This document shows positions 32,029-45,468 of a DNA stretch of 57,567 nt, piece by piece (position 1 is the first letter of the stretch; each line of letters opens with the position of its first letter). Source of the stretch: Planctomycetota bacterium (GTDB lineage: Bacteria; Planctomycetota; B15-G4; JADJEK01); the NCBI GenBank assembly GCA_016213895.1, contig JACQZJ010000049.1:1-57567 (forward strand), in the 5' to 3' direction. Position numbers and translations under genes: made by a program. The notes beneath the pieces are model-generated. The model was not told where the DNA came from, searched no databases, and worked only from the letters and a program-made list of their open reading frames with translations.

Positions 32029-33936
32029 TCACGGATAGAACGAGATCTTGACCGCGTTGGAGAGCGCGGCGCCCTGGGGCTGGCTGGCGTCCACCACGGC
32101 GATCTGGAGGACGACGTCGATGGGCCCGGAACCGCCGGCCACCGGGAAGACCATCTGCCCGGCGGGATCGGTGAACAGGACCACGGGCGGTATCACGAGG
32201 GGCAGCGGCACGAGCATGCCGCCCACGAACGGGGCCGGGTTGGCGAAGAGCGACACGAAGATCCAGGCTGGCGCGCTCGGTTTCGCGTTCTGCAGCAGGA
32301 AGGTGGCGCTGTTGCCGGTCCAGAGCGGCTGGCCGCAAACGGACAGCGTCGCGCTGCCCGGGCCCTGGTAGCCCAGGTCCTGAGCGCACGTCACCGGATC
32401 GGTCTGGTTGATCCAGACGTTCGTTCCCGCCCCGCGGCTGATGAGCAGGTCCAGGTCGTTGTCATTGTCGAGGTCGAGGATGCCCAGATCGTGCGTGCCC
32501 GTGAGGTCGCCCTCGTAGAGACCCTTGGCGCCCAGCCAGCCGCCGCTGCCGGACGTCTGGCGCTCGTGACGCAGCGTGATCTGGCTGCCCGGCGCGCCGC
32601 CGAGGTTGTGGTAGATGTGCAGGCGCCGGCTGTAGCCGGGGATGTCCACGTCCACGTCGCAATGGAGCGTGTCCTTCCAGCCGTCACCGTCGAGGTCGGC
32701 GATGAAGTTCTCGCTGGCGAAGCCGTCGTCGCCACCGGTGAGAAACTCGTAGGTGTTGCCGCCGCTGCCGCCGCTGAACTGCACGCGGCCGAGGGGATCG
32801 GTTGCGAGGTTGAAGCGGTAGCGGTCCAGGCCGTCGTCGCTGGTGATGATGTCCGGGCGGCCGTCGTTGTTCAGGTCGCCCACGGCGATGTGGTAGGGCG
32901 AGCTGCTGCCGTTGTCCGTGTCGTCGAAGATGTTGAAGAAGCCCTCGTTGGCCGGGTTGTTGTACGCCACGGCCACGTACTGGGGCGACTGCAGGGCCGT
33001 GTCCTTGACGATGTCCAGGGTGCCGTCGAGGTTCAGGTCGACGATCTCTGCCGCCATGCTGAAAGCGGAGGCCAGCATGGTCGCGGTCATGCGCAGCTGG
33101 CTCTCGTCCACGAAGTACCCCGGCTGGATCGCACCCCTGTTGATGAGGAGGCGATCGTTGAGGTCCTTGTCAGTGGGCTCCGCCGGGCCGCCGGCCCCGC
33201 CGCTGTCGTAGTCCCCGAAGTAGAGGTCCGGATAGCCGTCTCCCGTGACGTCGCCCGCGGCCACGGCGCAGAAGCGCGGGTTCTCCGGGTTGCCGGTGAT
33301 GTACTGGTAGAGCTGCGGAATGCGGGCGTCCTGGTGGAAGAGGCCCAGCCAGTTGCCGCTCAGGTCCTTGCCGCGGTTCATGTAGACGCGAGGATGGCCG
33401 ATGGACTTGGGCAACCCGTCGCTCAAGGTCGTGGCCGTCACCACGTCCAGCCACCCGTCCAGGTCGACGTCGACGATCACCGCGTCGCGGTCGTTCGTGA
33501 GCGCGAGGAAGCCCTGGTCGCCGGGGATGTCGGAGGATGACGCGTACTGGGCGGTGCGATCGACCAGAATGCCCTTCTCGTTCATGAGGAGCATGTTGGT
33601 GCGCCGGCCGGTGCTGGTGAAGGGCTGCTTGCGCACCACGACCAGGTCGTCCCAGCCGTCCTGGTTCAGGTCGCCTACGGCGAAGTCCGTCTCGATGCCA
33701 AGGAACTCGCTCCCGGCCGTGTCTCCGGGCAGCGACGTGGTCATGTTGGAGATGGCCGTCGGGCTCGGTCCGAGGTGGCTGTTGTCCTTGACGAACTCCA
33801 CCCACTGGTTGTTGAACTGGGCGAGGGCGGCGCCCTGGAGGGCCGCGAGAGACAGGGCGAACGCTGCGAAGCGAGAACTGCGCGGCGCGCCCCGGGAGAG
33901 GGGAGTGGCGTTCTGCCGATGATTGCGAGTTGTCAT
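32029..33936 (-). CDS. Exported FG-GAP/VCBS-repeat protein
   Basis: The start at 33936 precedes a signal peptide (FAAFALSLAALQGAALAQ). The 635-residue product contains at least seven calcium-binding FG-GAP/VCBS repeats: FAVGDLNQDGWDDLVVVRK, VDVDLDGWLDVVTAT, AAGDVTGDGYPDLYFGDYD, VDLNLDGTLDIVKD, AVGDLNNDGRPDIITSDD, ADLDGDGWKDTL and LDLDNDNDLDLLIS. These form an integrin-like propeller. The final ~110 residues (from SATLSVCGQPLWTG to ALSNAVKISFYP) are a beta domain also found at the end of the next gene. A longer frame upstream, to 35694, is a shadow. It is probably a surface or secreted structural protein. Confidence 0.88.
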   Translation of the reverse strand: MTTRNHRQNATPLSRGAPRSSRFAAFALSLAALQGAALAQFNNQWVEFVKDNSHLGPSPTAISNMTTSLPGDTAGSEFLGIETDFAVGDLNQDGWDDLVVVRKQPFTSTGRRTNMLLMNEKGILVDRTAQYASSSDIPGDQGFLALTNDRDAVIVDVDLDGWLDVVTATTLSDGLPKSIGHPRVYMNRGKDLSGNWLGLFHQDARIPQLYQYITGNPENPRFCAVAAGDVTGDGYPDLYFGDYDSGGAGGPAEPTDKDLNDRLLINRGAIQPGYFVDESQLRMTATMLASAFSMAAEIVDLNLDGTLDIVKDTALQSPQYVAVAYNNPANEGFFNIFDDTDNGSSSPYHIAVGDLNNDGRPDIITSDDGLDRYRFNLATDPLGRVQFSGGSGGNTYEFLTGGDDGFASENFIADLDGDGWKDTLHCDVDVDIPGYSRRLHIYHNLGGAPGSQITLRHERQTSGSGGWLGAKGLYEGDLTGTHDLGILDLDNDNDLDLLISRGAGTNVWINQTDPVTCAQDLGYQGPGSATLSVCGQPLWTGNSATFLLQNAKPSAPAWIFVSLFANPAPFVGGMLVPLPLVIPPVVLFTDPAGQMVFPVAGGSGPIDVVLQIAVVDASQPQGAALSNAVKISFYP

Positions 33937-35119: not shown

Positions 35120-36310
35120 TCACTCTCGCCGCGGCGGCAGTGCTCCGCCGCCTGCGGCCAGCGCCTCGTAAAAGCGGGCCTCCGCCTGCAGGCCGCGTTC
35201 CTGGCAGGCGGCCGCCAGGCCGCGCAGATCGCGCGGCATTCCGGAGAACCAGCGACCGGGGAAGGCTCCCCGCTCCGCGCCGGGAGGCGGGTTCTTGCCG
35301 TAGCGCTCCGCGTCCGCGAGAAGCTGGTCCGGCGCGACCGGGCCCAGGTAGACGATCTGCAGCCGCAAGTCGCAATCGACGAGGAAGCTCGCCGGCACCA
35401 CGTCAGCGGGCCGTGCCAGCACGTGCTCGAGGACGACACGCAGGAACTCGATCTCGCCCGCTTGCGGGAGCCGCGGCGCGAACGACAGGTCGCCTCGTCC
35501 GGCCGCGATCCGGCTGGCGAAGAGCGCCTGGACCTCCGGCCACTCGGCGCTGCCGTCCAGGCAGAGAGGCACGCAGGCCAGCCCTGCCGCGCGCAGGTCC
35601 TGGTCGCGCGCCGCCAGCTCGCCGAGCTCCTCCACGCATGGCGCGCAAGTGCGAGACCAGAGGTTGATGAGCGCCGGCGCTGCCCGGCCTCCAATCACCC
35701 GAGGCAGCGGCAGCGGCGTTCTCAGGACGACTCGTGCGCTGCCGGGGGATGGGGGCGCGGTGTTCGGCGCAACCGGAAGCACGGCGCTCCGCGCCGGCAC
35801 GAGCCGCGCCTCGGGAACGCCCTGCGTCAGCTCGTAGCTTCGGTTTGGCTCGAGACCCTGGAACTCCTCGGCCTCGCCTCCCGGCCAGCAGACCCGCACG
35901 CGCTCGATCTTCTCGGCCCGGCCCAGTCCGAAGTGCAGGGTCTTGCTCGACTGTGCGAGGTAGCCCTCGCCCGCAGCGAGCTGGTGCACGAGACACCGGC
36001 CGCCCGCGAAGACCTCGACCATTGCCCCGACGGCGTCACGGTTGCACCGCTGTCCGATCAGCCGCAAGGAAAGGAAGCGCTGGCCGCCGTCCTCGTCGTT
36101 CCTCATGAAGCGCAGCAGCGGGCCGGTGCGGTTCTTGAGGAAGAGGTCCAGGTCGCCGTCGCCGTCCCAGTCGCTGAGCGCCGCCGCCCGGCCGTCGTCC
36201 AGAAAGTCCAGGCCGGAGATCGCCGACACGTCGGCGAAGCGGCCGTCGCCGAGGTTCAAGTAGGCGCAGTTCCGCTCGCGGCCGCTCCAGGAGTTGCCGC
36301 TGTCCATCAA
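35120..36310 (-). CDS. ASPIC/UnbV and thioredoxin-like part of a gene interrupted by one TGA
   Basis: Codons here continue, in the same frame, the gene starting at 37852. The region between the TGA at 36401 and the TTG at 36310 is also coding in character (SFFWRRVASRSPADEAERRG). The 396-residue part carries one more VCBS repeat (LSDWDGDGDLDLFLKNRTG) and an ASPIC/UnbV domain (NRDAVGAMVEVFAGGR, AGEGYLAQSSKTLHFGLG). It ends in a thioredoxin-like domain with a CxxC motif (LINLWSRTCAPCVEELGEL). It has no signal or proper ribosome site of its own, so independent expression is doubtful. It is either the C-terminal 60% of a recoded protein or the silent half of a nonsense mutant. Confidence 0.75.
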   Translation of the reverse strand: MMDSGNSWSGRERNCAYLNLGDGRFADVSAISGLDFLDDGRAAALSDWDGDGDLDLFLKNRTGPLLRFMRNDEDGGQRFLSLRLIGQRCNRDAVGAMVEVFAGGRCLVHQLAAGEGYLAQSSKTLHFGLGRAEKIERVRVCWPGGEAEEFQGLEPNRSYELTQGVPEARLVPARSAVLPVAPNTAPPSPGSARVVLRTPLPLPRVIGGRAAPALINLWSRTCAPCVEELGELAARDQDLRAAGLACVPLCLDGSAEWPEVQALFASRIAAGRGDLSFAPRLPQAGEIEFLRVVLEHVLARPADVVPASFLVDCDLRLQIVYLGPVAPDQLLADAERYGKNPPPGAERGAFPGRWFSGMPRDLRGLAAACQERGLQAEARFYEALAAGGGALPPRRE

Positions 36311-36363
36311 GCGCGTGAGGGCCGCCCAGCCGTTCTCGTAGCCGCGGCGCTCCGCTTCGTCTG

Positions 36364-36392
36364 CCGGTGAGCGCGACGCAACGCGCCGCCAG
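36364..36392 (-). promoter_or_regulatory. RNA hairpin just after the in-frame TGA (SECIS-like candidate)
   Basis: Eight bases after the TGA the mRNA can form CUGG/CCGG (with one G-U), an internal loop, a G-U pair, and a GCGCG/CGCGC stem closed by the loop UUGCGU. Position and a G-containing apical loop are like bacterial selenocysteine insertion elements. In DNA this GC-rich, such hairpins also arise by chance. Confidence 0.35.
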
Positions 36393-36400
36393 AAGAAGCT

Positions 36401-37852
36401 TCAGAGGTCGTCCTTCAGCTCGTTGGTGAGGAAGCCGTTCGGCACGACCATGTCCGGGAAGCCGTCGTTCTCGAAGTCCGCGAAGATCGCTCCAAAGGCC
36501 CAGCGTCCCATGCGGATGCCGGCGGCGTCGCTCACGTCCGCGAACGTCCCGTCGCCGTCGTTCCGGAGCAGCGTGTTGCCGAGGGCGTGCTGCTGGATCT
36601 CCCGGCGCGCGGCCTCTTCTCCAGCCTTGAAGCGCGGCTTCGGCGGCCCGTTCTGCGCGTCGTGGAAGGGATCGGGCAGGCTCTCGCCGTAGCGCGTCTT
36701 GACGTAGCGGCAGGCGTAGATGTCCAGGTCGCCGTCCAGGTCGTAGTCGGCCGCGGCGAGCGAGTAGAAGCTGGGAGAGGTCGCGGCCCGGAGCGCGTGC
36801 GCCGGCGCGAAGGTCCCGGTCCCGTCGTTGGCGGAGACCACGAGCAGAGGTCCCATGGCGCAGGCCAGGTCCTGGTCGCCGTCGTTGTCATAGTCGAAGA
36901 GCAGGACACCCTTGGTGTCGTCGAGCCACGCCACTCCCGCCTCGAGCGCGCGCTCGCTCGCCGTGGCGTCCGGGTTCTGCACATAAAGCCGGTTCGGGAT
37001 CCCCGTGCCGGTGGCGACATACAGGTCATCCAGGCCGTCGCCGTTCACGTCCCCGACGGCCAGGCCGTTGTGCCCGAGGTAGTTCCACTCGCCGAGAGCG
37101 TCGGAGCGTCCGAACCAGTACTCCCCGCCCCGGAGCATCAGGTCCGCGAACAGGCCGTCATCCGCGAACACGGCGCTGGTGCACTCCGTGAACTGCGGCC
37201 CCCGGGACACGATCTCGTCGAAGTCGACCAGCGCGATCCCGGCGATGAGCGGATGGTCGGGATCGTCCGTCTCGGCCCACGCGACCCACCAGCGGCCGTT
37301 CTGCTGCAGGGACCGCCCGGGCGCGGCGCCGAAAGCCTGGTAGAGGACCAAGGTGCGGAAGCGGCCCTCCCCGGCCCGCTCGACCCGGTAGATCTTGAAG
37401 GCGATCGCCAGGGGCGCTCCTGGCGGGAAGGGGGCGAGGAGGTCCGCGAAGGCTTGCGCCGGGTCGAGCGCCGGCTCCTCCCGAGCCGCCGGCGGCGCGC
37501 TCCACCTCGTGACCGAGAACCTGCCGGCGGCGAACCGCTCTTCCCCTGGCCGGCGCAGGGGCGGCAGGAGGGAGTCCGGAGCGAAGAAGCGCGCGGCGGC
37601 CGCGAGCGCGGCCGCGTCGCGCCGCTCCAGGACCCGGGCCAGCTCCTTCAGCTCATGGTCGGCGTGCTTGTACTGGATCTCCGTTTCCCAGTCGTCGTCG
37701 AGCGGGCTGTTCTTCCCCATCAGCTCCTCGATCTCCTGCTGGCGCGAGGGCGCTCGCCCCTCTTCCTGCGACCAGCACCGGGACGGGACGGTCCAGGTCA
37801 CGGACGCGGCCGTCACGGCAAGAACGAAGGAGAGAGGGGTCGACCGGCTCAT
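36401..37852 (-). CDS. Exported VCBS-repeat protein, N-terminal part up to an in-frame TGA
   Basis: From the ATG at 37852 the protein has a signal peptide (LSFVLAVTAASVTWTVPSRC) and a region of ~200 residues of unknown fold. VCBS/FG-GAP repeats follow (VGDVNGDGLDDLYVATG, LFDYDNDGDQDLACAMG, AADYDLDGDLDIYACRY, FADFENDGFPDMVVPNG). The frame ends at TGA after NGFLTNELKDDL (codon 484), in the middle of what is otherwise a continuous 910-codon gene. The sequence directly after, SFFWRRV, is the natural continuation of this CRTAC1/ASPIC-type family. The gene is divergent from the giant gene at 38120. Confidence 0.8.
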   Translation of the reverse strand: MSRSTPLSFVLAVTAASVTWTVPSRCWSQEEGRAPSRQQEIEELMGKNSPLDDDWETEIQYKHADHELKELARVLERRDAAALAAAARFFAPDSLLPPLRRPGEERFAAGRFSVTRWSAPPAAREEPALDPAQAFADLLAPFPPGAPLAIAFKIYRVERAGEGRFRTLVLYQAFGAAPGRSLQQNGRWWVAWAETDDPDHPLIAGIALVDFDEIVSRGPQFTECTSAVFADDGLFADLMLRGGEYWFGRSDALGEWNYLGHNGLAVGDVNGDGLDDLYVATGTGIPNRLYVQNPDATASERALEAGVAWLDDTKGVLLFDYDNDGDQDLACAMGPLLVVSANDGTGTFAPAHALRAATSPSFYSLAAADYDLDGDLDIYACRYVKTRYGESLPDPFHDAQNGPPKPRFKAGEEAARREIQQHALGNTLLRNDGDGTFADVSDAAGIRMGRWAFGAIFADFENDGFPDMVVPNGFLTNELKDDL

Positions 37853-44748: not shown

Positions 44749-45468
44749 GTGCCCAATAACATGAACAGGAAGCGACGACCGATCCCGACCCAGCAACGGT
44801 TCGCCTTCGCCCGGCGCGGCGGCCGGCGGCCCGGCGCCGGGCGCAAGCCCAAGGGGGAACGGGCCGGGGTCTCGCACAAGACGCGCGAGGCGCTCGCGGC
44901 GCGCTTCCCCGTGCACGTGACCGTGCGGTTCGAGCAGGGCCTGCCGCGGCTGCGCGACGCGAAGACCAACTGTGTGCTGAAGGGCGCGTTCGCGGCCGGG
45001 TGCGACCGCTTCGGCTTTCGGCTCGCGCACTACTCGGTGCAGACGAACCACGTGCACCTGATCTGCGAGGGAAAGGACCGCGAGGCGCTGGCGAAGGGCA
45101 TGCAGGGGCTGTTGATCCGGGTGGCCAAGGCGCTGAACCGGCTCTGGGAGCGGCACGGACGGGTGTTCGCCGACCGCTACTACGCCCGCATTCTGAGGAC
45201 GCCACGCGAGGTGAGAAGCGCGCTGTGCTACGTCTTGAACAACGCGCGGCGGCACGCGGTGCGGCTGGGGAGGGCGCTCCTTGATCCCTTCGCGAGCGGA
45301 TTCTGGTTCGTCGGCTGGAAGGAGACCGCGGGTCGGCTGCCCCGGGGCCTGAGCGACACGGACGGTGACCGTCCCCTGGCGCGAGCGAGAACCTGGCTGC
45401 TGGAACTCGGCTGGCGGAAGCGCGGCCTGATCAGCATGCGCGAGGTCCCGGCCGCCGGGGCTCTTTGA
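44749..45468 (+). CDS. REP-associated (IS200-like) tyrosine transposase
   Basis: The 239-residue protein is a single-domain Y1 transposase of the RayT type. The metal-binding HUH motif is NHVHLI, the catalytic Tyr lies in VFADRYYARIL, and LRTPREVRSALCYVLNNARR is the conserved C-terminal block. The N-terminus is Arg/Lys/Gly-rich (GGRRPGAGRKPKG), likely a DNA-binding extension. The listed start is GTG at 44749; an ATG at 44761 is equally possible. There are no terminal inverted repeats or flanking partner gene (tnpB), consistent with the domesticated REP-linked group rather than a full insertion sequence. It may have contributed to rearrangement in the decayed region downstream. Confidence 0.88.
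   Translation: MPNNMNRKRRPIPTQQRFAFARRGGRRPGAGRKPKGERAGVSHKTREALAARFPVHVTVRFEQGLPRLRDAKTNCVLKGAFAAGCDRFGFRLAHYSVQTNHVHLICEGKDREALAKGMQGLLIRVAKALNRLWERHGRVFADRYYARILRTPREVRSALCYVLNNARRHAVRLGRALLDPFASGFWFVGWKETAGRLPRGLSDTDGDRPLARARTWLLELGWRKRGLISMREVPAAGAL

Follow-up and report, generated by a model that had tools for sequence, protein, structure and literature searches.

A probable selenoprotein family on a CRTAC1-like beta-propeller scaffold in Planctomycetota and Acidobacteriota

The window analyzed in this study, a stretch of 57,567 nucleotides from a Planctomycetota bacterium, contains a 910-codon reading frame with a single interruption, a TGA at codon 484. This locus raises the question of whether the TGA is decoded as selenocysteine (Sec) or is a fresh nonsense mutation, the two readings put forward in an earlier note on this DNA. 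The codon was confirmed at positions 36403-36401, with the frame otherwise open and continuing through the C-terminus. The coordinates assigned to the gene in the earlier note were found to be correct, whereas its strand had to be corrected to the minus strand (Table 1). Based on the comparisons described below, we conclude that the gene very probably encodes a selenoprotein in which UGA-484 is read as Sec.

Table 1. Features of the probable selenoprotein gene, with positions in the window.
Feature	Position	Strand	Basis
Probable selenoprotein gene, 910 codons, single in-frame TGA	35120..37852	-	frame read and translation
CRTAC1-like FG-GAP/VCBS beta-propeller carrying calcium-type Dx[DN]xDG motifs	35873..37195 (approximate)	-	Pfam, PDB sequence match, model
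Insertion in the beta-propeller bearing the putative Sec, two predicted helices, Sec at N-terminus of the first	36293..36427	-	predicted model, low confidence
Putative Sec codon TGA, residue 484, motif NGFLTNELKDDL-U-SFFWRRVASRSP	36401..36403	-	conserved alignment column
Putative bSECIS hairpin, 6-bp stem GCGGCG/CGUCGC, loop CGUUG	36373..36389	-	covariation, published bSECIS constraints
ASPIC/UnbV domain PF07593	35834..36034	-	Pfam
Thioredoxin-like (ResA/TlpA-type) C-terminal domain	35318..35695 (approximate)	-	alignment, model
CAPC redox motif (residues 736-739) in the thioredoxin-like domain	35636..35647	-	alignment, translation

The N-terminus of the protein carries a hydrophobic segment that resembles a signal sequence as judged by eye (MSRSTPLSFVLAVTAASVTW...). 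FG-GAP repeats and the ASPIC/UnbV domain (PF07593, E=1.3e-18) were both identified by Pfam above the curated cut-off, which places the protein in the CRTAC1/ASPIC-UnbV FG-GAP family and bears out the VCBS and ASPIC/UnbV assignment made in the earlier note. The best PDB match is murine CRTAC1 (PDB ID: 9ETN), at 1e-12 by sequence and 3e-20 by fold, and covers the propeller and ASPIC part. The C-terminal CxxC-thioredoxin domain, also proposed earlier, contains the motif LINLWSRTCAPCVEE. Its Pfam score in the 910-residue protein itself is below threshold, but the domain is supported by the alignment, by a predicted model that matches the ResA/TlpA-type thiol-disulfide oxidoreductases, and by AhpC-TSA and Redoxin matches in homologues. 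Both the thioredoxin fold and the CxxC of the TlpA/ResA type are present. The predicted model is weak around the Sec position (pLDDT about 50). Elsewhere in the window, another frame with an FG-GAP repeat lies downstream of this gene at 32029-33540 on the minus strand, with no ASPIC match in the part tested, and an IS200-like Y1 transposase (PF01797, just above cut-off) is located at 44749-45468 on the plus strand.

The TGA was found to be a conserved feature of the family. A six-frame search of 148 relatives gave one TGA in most of the good matches. The family profile (A2) was then applied to 392 Planctomycetota genomes, 109 of which contain the family. Out of the 150 best family rows in this phylum, 127 contain a TGA inside the match (126 of them exactly one) and the remaining 23 contain no stop, whereas TAA or TAG was not found inside the match in any of them. 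The TGA falls in one column in about one hundred aligned copies, within the motif D(L/T)U-SFFWRQVV or, in its wider form across the aligned copies, D(L/T/Y)-U-(S/T)-x-x-W; an in-frame UGA at a single column in homologues is what is looked for in a selenoprotein. Together, the share of TGA among the top matches, the lack of TAA and TAG and the single alignment column rule out chance. The TGA-bearing homologues range down to 30-40% identity and belong to two phyla, as the family was also found in 53 of 297 Acidobacteriota genomes with the TGA at the same site. The residues following the TGA (SFFWRRV), regarded in the earlier note as the expected family continuation, were observed to be conserved together with the propeller blade that precedes it. 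At E<=1e-12, three genomes (G123, G152 and G174) each gave between 7 and 10 family matches, which suggests large expansions.

A hairpin downstream of the TGA had also been noticed earlier, with a 5-bp stem and a 6-base loop. The hairpin itself was confirmed but its register was not; the earlier register (GCGCG-uugcgu-CGCGC) is possible in this gene, but the register that covaries in the family is GCGGCG-CGUUG-CGUCGC, with a 6-bp stem and a 5-nt loop. This hairpin begins 12 nt past the TGA with a distance of 17 nt from the UGA to the apical loop, carries GU at loop positions 2 and 3, and in its minimal form has a folding energy of -10.2 kcal/mol. In the SECIS element of Escherichia coli fdhF, the hairpin begins about 11 nt after the UGA and has a GGUC-type apical loop; compared to it, the stem found here is shorter and simpler. 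All of the values for the hairpin of the present gene lie within the published bSECIS limits, namely a loop of 3-9 nt, a stem of 4-16 bp, a G within the first two loop positions, a UGA-loop distance of 16-37 nt and an MFE of <= -7.5 kcal/mol (PMC13188914).

Most copies share the consensus of a TGA, an 11-nt linker and GCGnCn-nGUnn-nGnCGC, that is, a 6-bp stem and a 5-nt loop containing GU. All six pairs are formed in 63 of 77 TGA copies compared to none of the 23 copies with a sense codon, and synonymous recoding of the same proteins produced all six pairs in only 3.4% (maximum 10%, 500 trials). When the register was left free, the hairpin was found in 76 of 80 TGA copies and 2 of 22 sense copies, and in Acidobacteriota, with the register fixed, in 19 of 25 and 1 of 17 respectively. 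In an alignment limited to 66 copies in the canonical register, 98.1% of the cells pair, and changes on both sides occur at four of the six pairs (16-30, 18-28, 19-27 and 20-26), amounting to 38 cells compared to 10 in shuffles. Judged from this pattern of substitution, the hairpin after the UGA is under compensatory selection and very probably acts as a SECIS element.

The search for sel genes suggested in the earlier note gave selA, selB, selD and tRNA-Sec (selC), all present in the genome. The tRNA-Sec, with anticodon TCA, adjoins selA and selB on contig C97, and one selD copy is of the Sec type with its own catalytic Sec. Two copies each of tRNA-Sec, selA, selB and selD were observed in this genome (G000; contigs C97, C214, C64, C82 and C88), with the Sec-codon selD adjoining selA on C64. 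This apparently doubled Sec-decoding set may have arisen by genuine duplication or by transfer, or the bin may be mixed; two tRNA-Sec occur in just 5 of the 227 tRNA-Sec-positive Planctomycetota genomes.

The presence of the TGA was also found to follow that of tRNA-Sec across genomes. Only tRNA-Sec matches at E<=1e-10 were counted; ARAGORN and the control genomes showed those scoring 30-51 bits to be tRNA-Ser cross-hits, and these were discarded. In Planctomycetota, tRNA-Sec is present in 66 of 71 genomes with a strong TGA copy compared to 161 of 321 others (p=9e-13, uncorrected for kinship); the corresponding figures for Acidobacteriota are 33 of 37 TGA genomes and 6 of the 16 whose copies all carry a sense codon (p=2e-4, likewise uncorrected). 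tRNA-Sec was also present in each of the six named genomes that have TGA loci, of which two belong to Acidobacteriota. Three genomes (G042, G288 and G342) have a TGA copy and no tRNA-Sec, but are probably incomplete bins since selA is present. In two further genomes with a TGA copy (G013 and G177, drafts 84% and 77% complete), neither tRNA-Sec nor selA was found, which counts against the Sec reading.

The copies with a sense codon at the Sec site carry Glu, Asn, Arg, Ala, Gly, Ser, Gln, Asp or His. Cysteine was found only in three divergent short copies of the DYC type (L304-L306) from two Acidobacteriota genomes, one of which (G674) has tRNA-Sec. A complete absence of Cys homologues holds in Planctomycetota but is broken by these Acidobacteriota copies, and the Sec/Cys pairing known from selenoproteins is provided by the three copies alone, with most sense copies carrying other residues. 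Such mostly non-Cys replacements are unusual for a selenoprotein and count against the Sec reading. Varied non-Cys residues, which the earlier note would have held against Sec, are seen in a minority of copies, and these mostly also lack the hairpin and the CxxC. As both are lost with few exceptions, the non-Cys sense copies look like lineages that have abandoned the Sec function.

Of the long copies, 76 of the 80 with Sec retain the CxxC, whereas just one of the 19 sense-codon copies does (p=5e-15, with no correction for kinship); the wider CxxC tally of 122 rows includes two misaligned short sense rows (L037_1221 and L139_1371) that are outside this comparison. The thioredoxin-like domain is still recognizable in the aligned Planctomycetota sense copies, for example as WSSEVPGSE in place of WASWCxPC. 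Exceptions were observed in both directions: four long TGA copies are without the CxxC and short Sec copies are without the thioredoxin-like domain, while an Acidobacteriota copy with Asn (L298) is the sole long sense copy with a CxxC (WMAGCRACQKD) and possibly represents a recent loss of Sec. On a tree built without the Sec site column and leaving out L037_1221, Sec was lost at least five times. In independent pairs on this tree the CxxC changed in the same direction in 3.7 of 4 and never in the opposite one; the corrected sign test gives p=0.125, with the 4-5 pairs being too few for significance.

Several other explanations of the UGA were considered. A fresh nonsense mutation, a pseudogene or an assembly error would also show up as a lone in-frame stop in a single draft genome, but the same TGA column in about one hundred homologues of two phyla and the lack of TAA and TAG in the 150 best matches refute the fresh mutation suggested earlier and leave this explanation a negligible probability. 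Equally improbable is that the UGA is a true stop followed by a separate gene with its own start. ORF finders do cut the gene in this manner, into ORFs of 527 and 396 aa, but the two halves form one continuous protein in the sense orthologues, and the conservation of the residues after the UGA along with the propeller blade before it also speaks against two proteins.

The open and conserved frame past the UGA would be equally expected from programmed readthrough, or from insertion of Trp, Gly or Cys by a near-cognate tRNA, in either case without Sec. We consider this very unlikely, as the hairpin falls within the bSECIS limits and shows selection only in the UGA copies, the UGA copies track tRNA-Sec, and the genome has a complete Sec machinery with a Sec-type selD. 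A slightly less remote, though still unlikely, explanation accepts Sec at the UGA but gives it a mainly regulatory role, in which selenium would switch between a truncated propeller of 483 residues and the full protein and the Sec residue itself would be non-catalytic. The chemically varied sense residues imply that the site tolerates many side chains, and truncation would delete both the ASPIC and thioredoxin domains, which might suit such a switch. On the other hand, the D-x-U-S-x-x-W motif is conserved, rare Cys copies occur, and the sense copies have lost the CxxC as well, a sign that the residue itself takes part in a redox partnership.

From its sequence features, the protein is best viewed as a selenoprotein built on a CRTAC1-like beta-propeller, with a thioredoxin domain as its internal reductant. 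In the proposed mechanism, SelB and tRNA-Sec would decode UGA-484 as directed by the downstream hairpin, and the protein would be exported, as its signal-like N-terminus suggests. In the low-confidence model, the propeller insertion has a short helix with the Sec at its N-terminus, where the residue may serve as the catalytic nucleophile of an extracytoplasmic redox reaction on a peroxide or another oxidized substrate. The fused TlpA/ResA-type CxxC domain would then reduce the oxidized Sec, so that the protein would carry its own reductant, and the short Sec copies without this domain would need a separate one. That the Sec works in such a catalytic partnership with the CxxC domain appears probable, chiefly because the two are lost jointly.

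The family shares the beta-propeller, the Dx[DN]xDG motifs and the C-terminal ASPIC domain with the CRTAC1/ASPIC-UnbV FG-GAP proteins as seen in the crystal structure 9ETN, but adds the helical insertion with the putative Sec and, in most cases, the fused thioredoxin-like domain. The CxxC domain resembles that of the TlpA/ResA thiol:disulfide oxidoreductases, with fold matches to both ResA and TlpA. Here it is fused to a propeller protein and the Sec lies outside of it, whereas in the catalogued UGC-type TlpA selenoprotein the Sec is found inside the TlpA-type domain itself (PMC13188914). The combination of Sec with a thiol/disulfide reductant, a UGA with a bSECIS and selABCD is also found in glycine reductase and in the SaoT-type and peroxiredoxin-like selenoproteins (PMC13188914), but in the present family the Sec is located in a propeller insertion outside any UxxC or CxxU motif, and hardly any Cys counterparts exist.

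No FG-GAP, VCBS, ASPIC or CRTAC1 protein appears among the 119 prokaryotic selenoprotein families catalogued in May 2026 (PMC13188914), NCBIfam (June 2026) has no model for the family and gives just a weak TlpA match, and no description of a UnbV, CRTAC1, FG-GAP or VCBS selenoprotein was found in the openly licensed literature. Judged against these three sources, this is a selenoprotein family that is apparently new and built on a known scaffold, in agreement with the remark in the earlier note that an ASPIC/VCBS selenoprotein would be new. According to the authors of deep-Sep, Cys homologues now seem to exist for every known selenoprotein, and their filter would discard selenoproteins that have none (PMC12013277). 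The near absence of Cys homologues may be the reason why this family has been overlooked so far, and it makes the family an almost clean exception to the abundant Cys counterparts expected of selenoproteins (PMC12013277, PMC13188914). The question of what only Sec can do thereby becomes directly testable, since a single scaffold exists with Sec, with Cys and with other sense residues to compare.

The family is large and conserved; genomes of these environmentally abundant phyla contain as many as ten or so related copies, and standard ORF calling splits each of its genes in two. Lineages that lose Sec appear to drop the CxxC rather than adopt Cys, which suggests a reaction that only selenium supports. 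We consider it fairly likely that these proteins form a new class of exported selenoenzymes built on a beta-propeller, one that is widespread and present in multiple copies in Planctomycetota and Acidobacteriota and whose Sec cannot be functionally replaced by Cys. If true, a whole class of selenoenzymes has escaped the gene finders that rely on Cys/Sec pairs, and some of the ASPIC/CRTAC1-type proteins, whose function is otherwise obscure, would receive their first redox reading.
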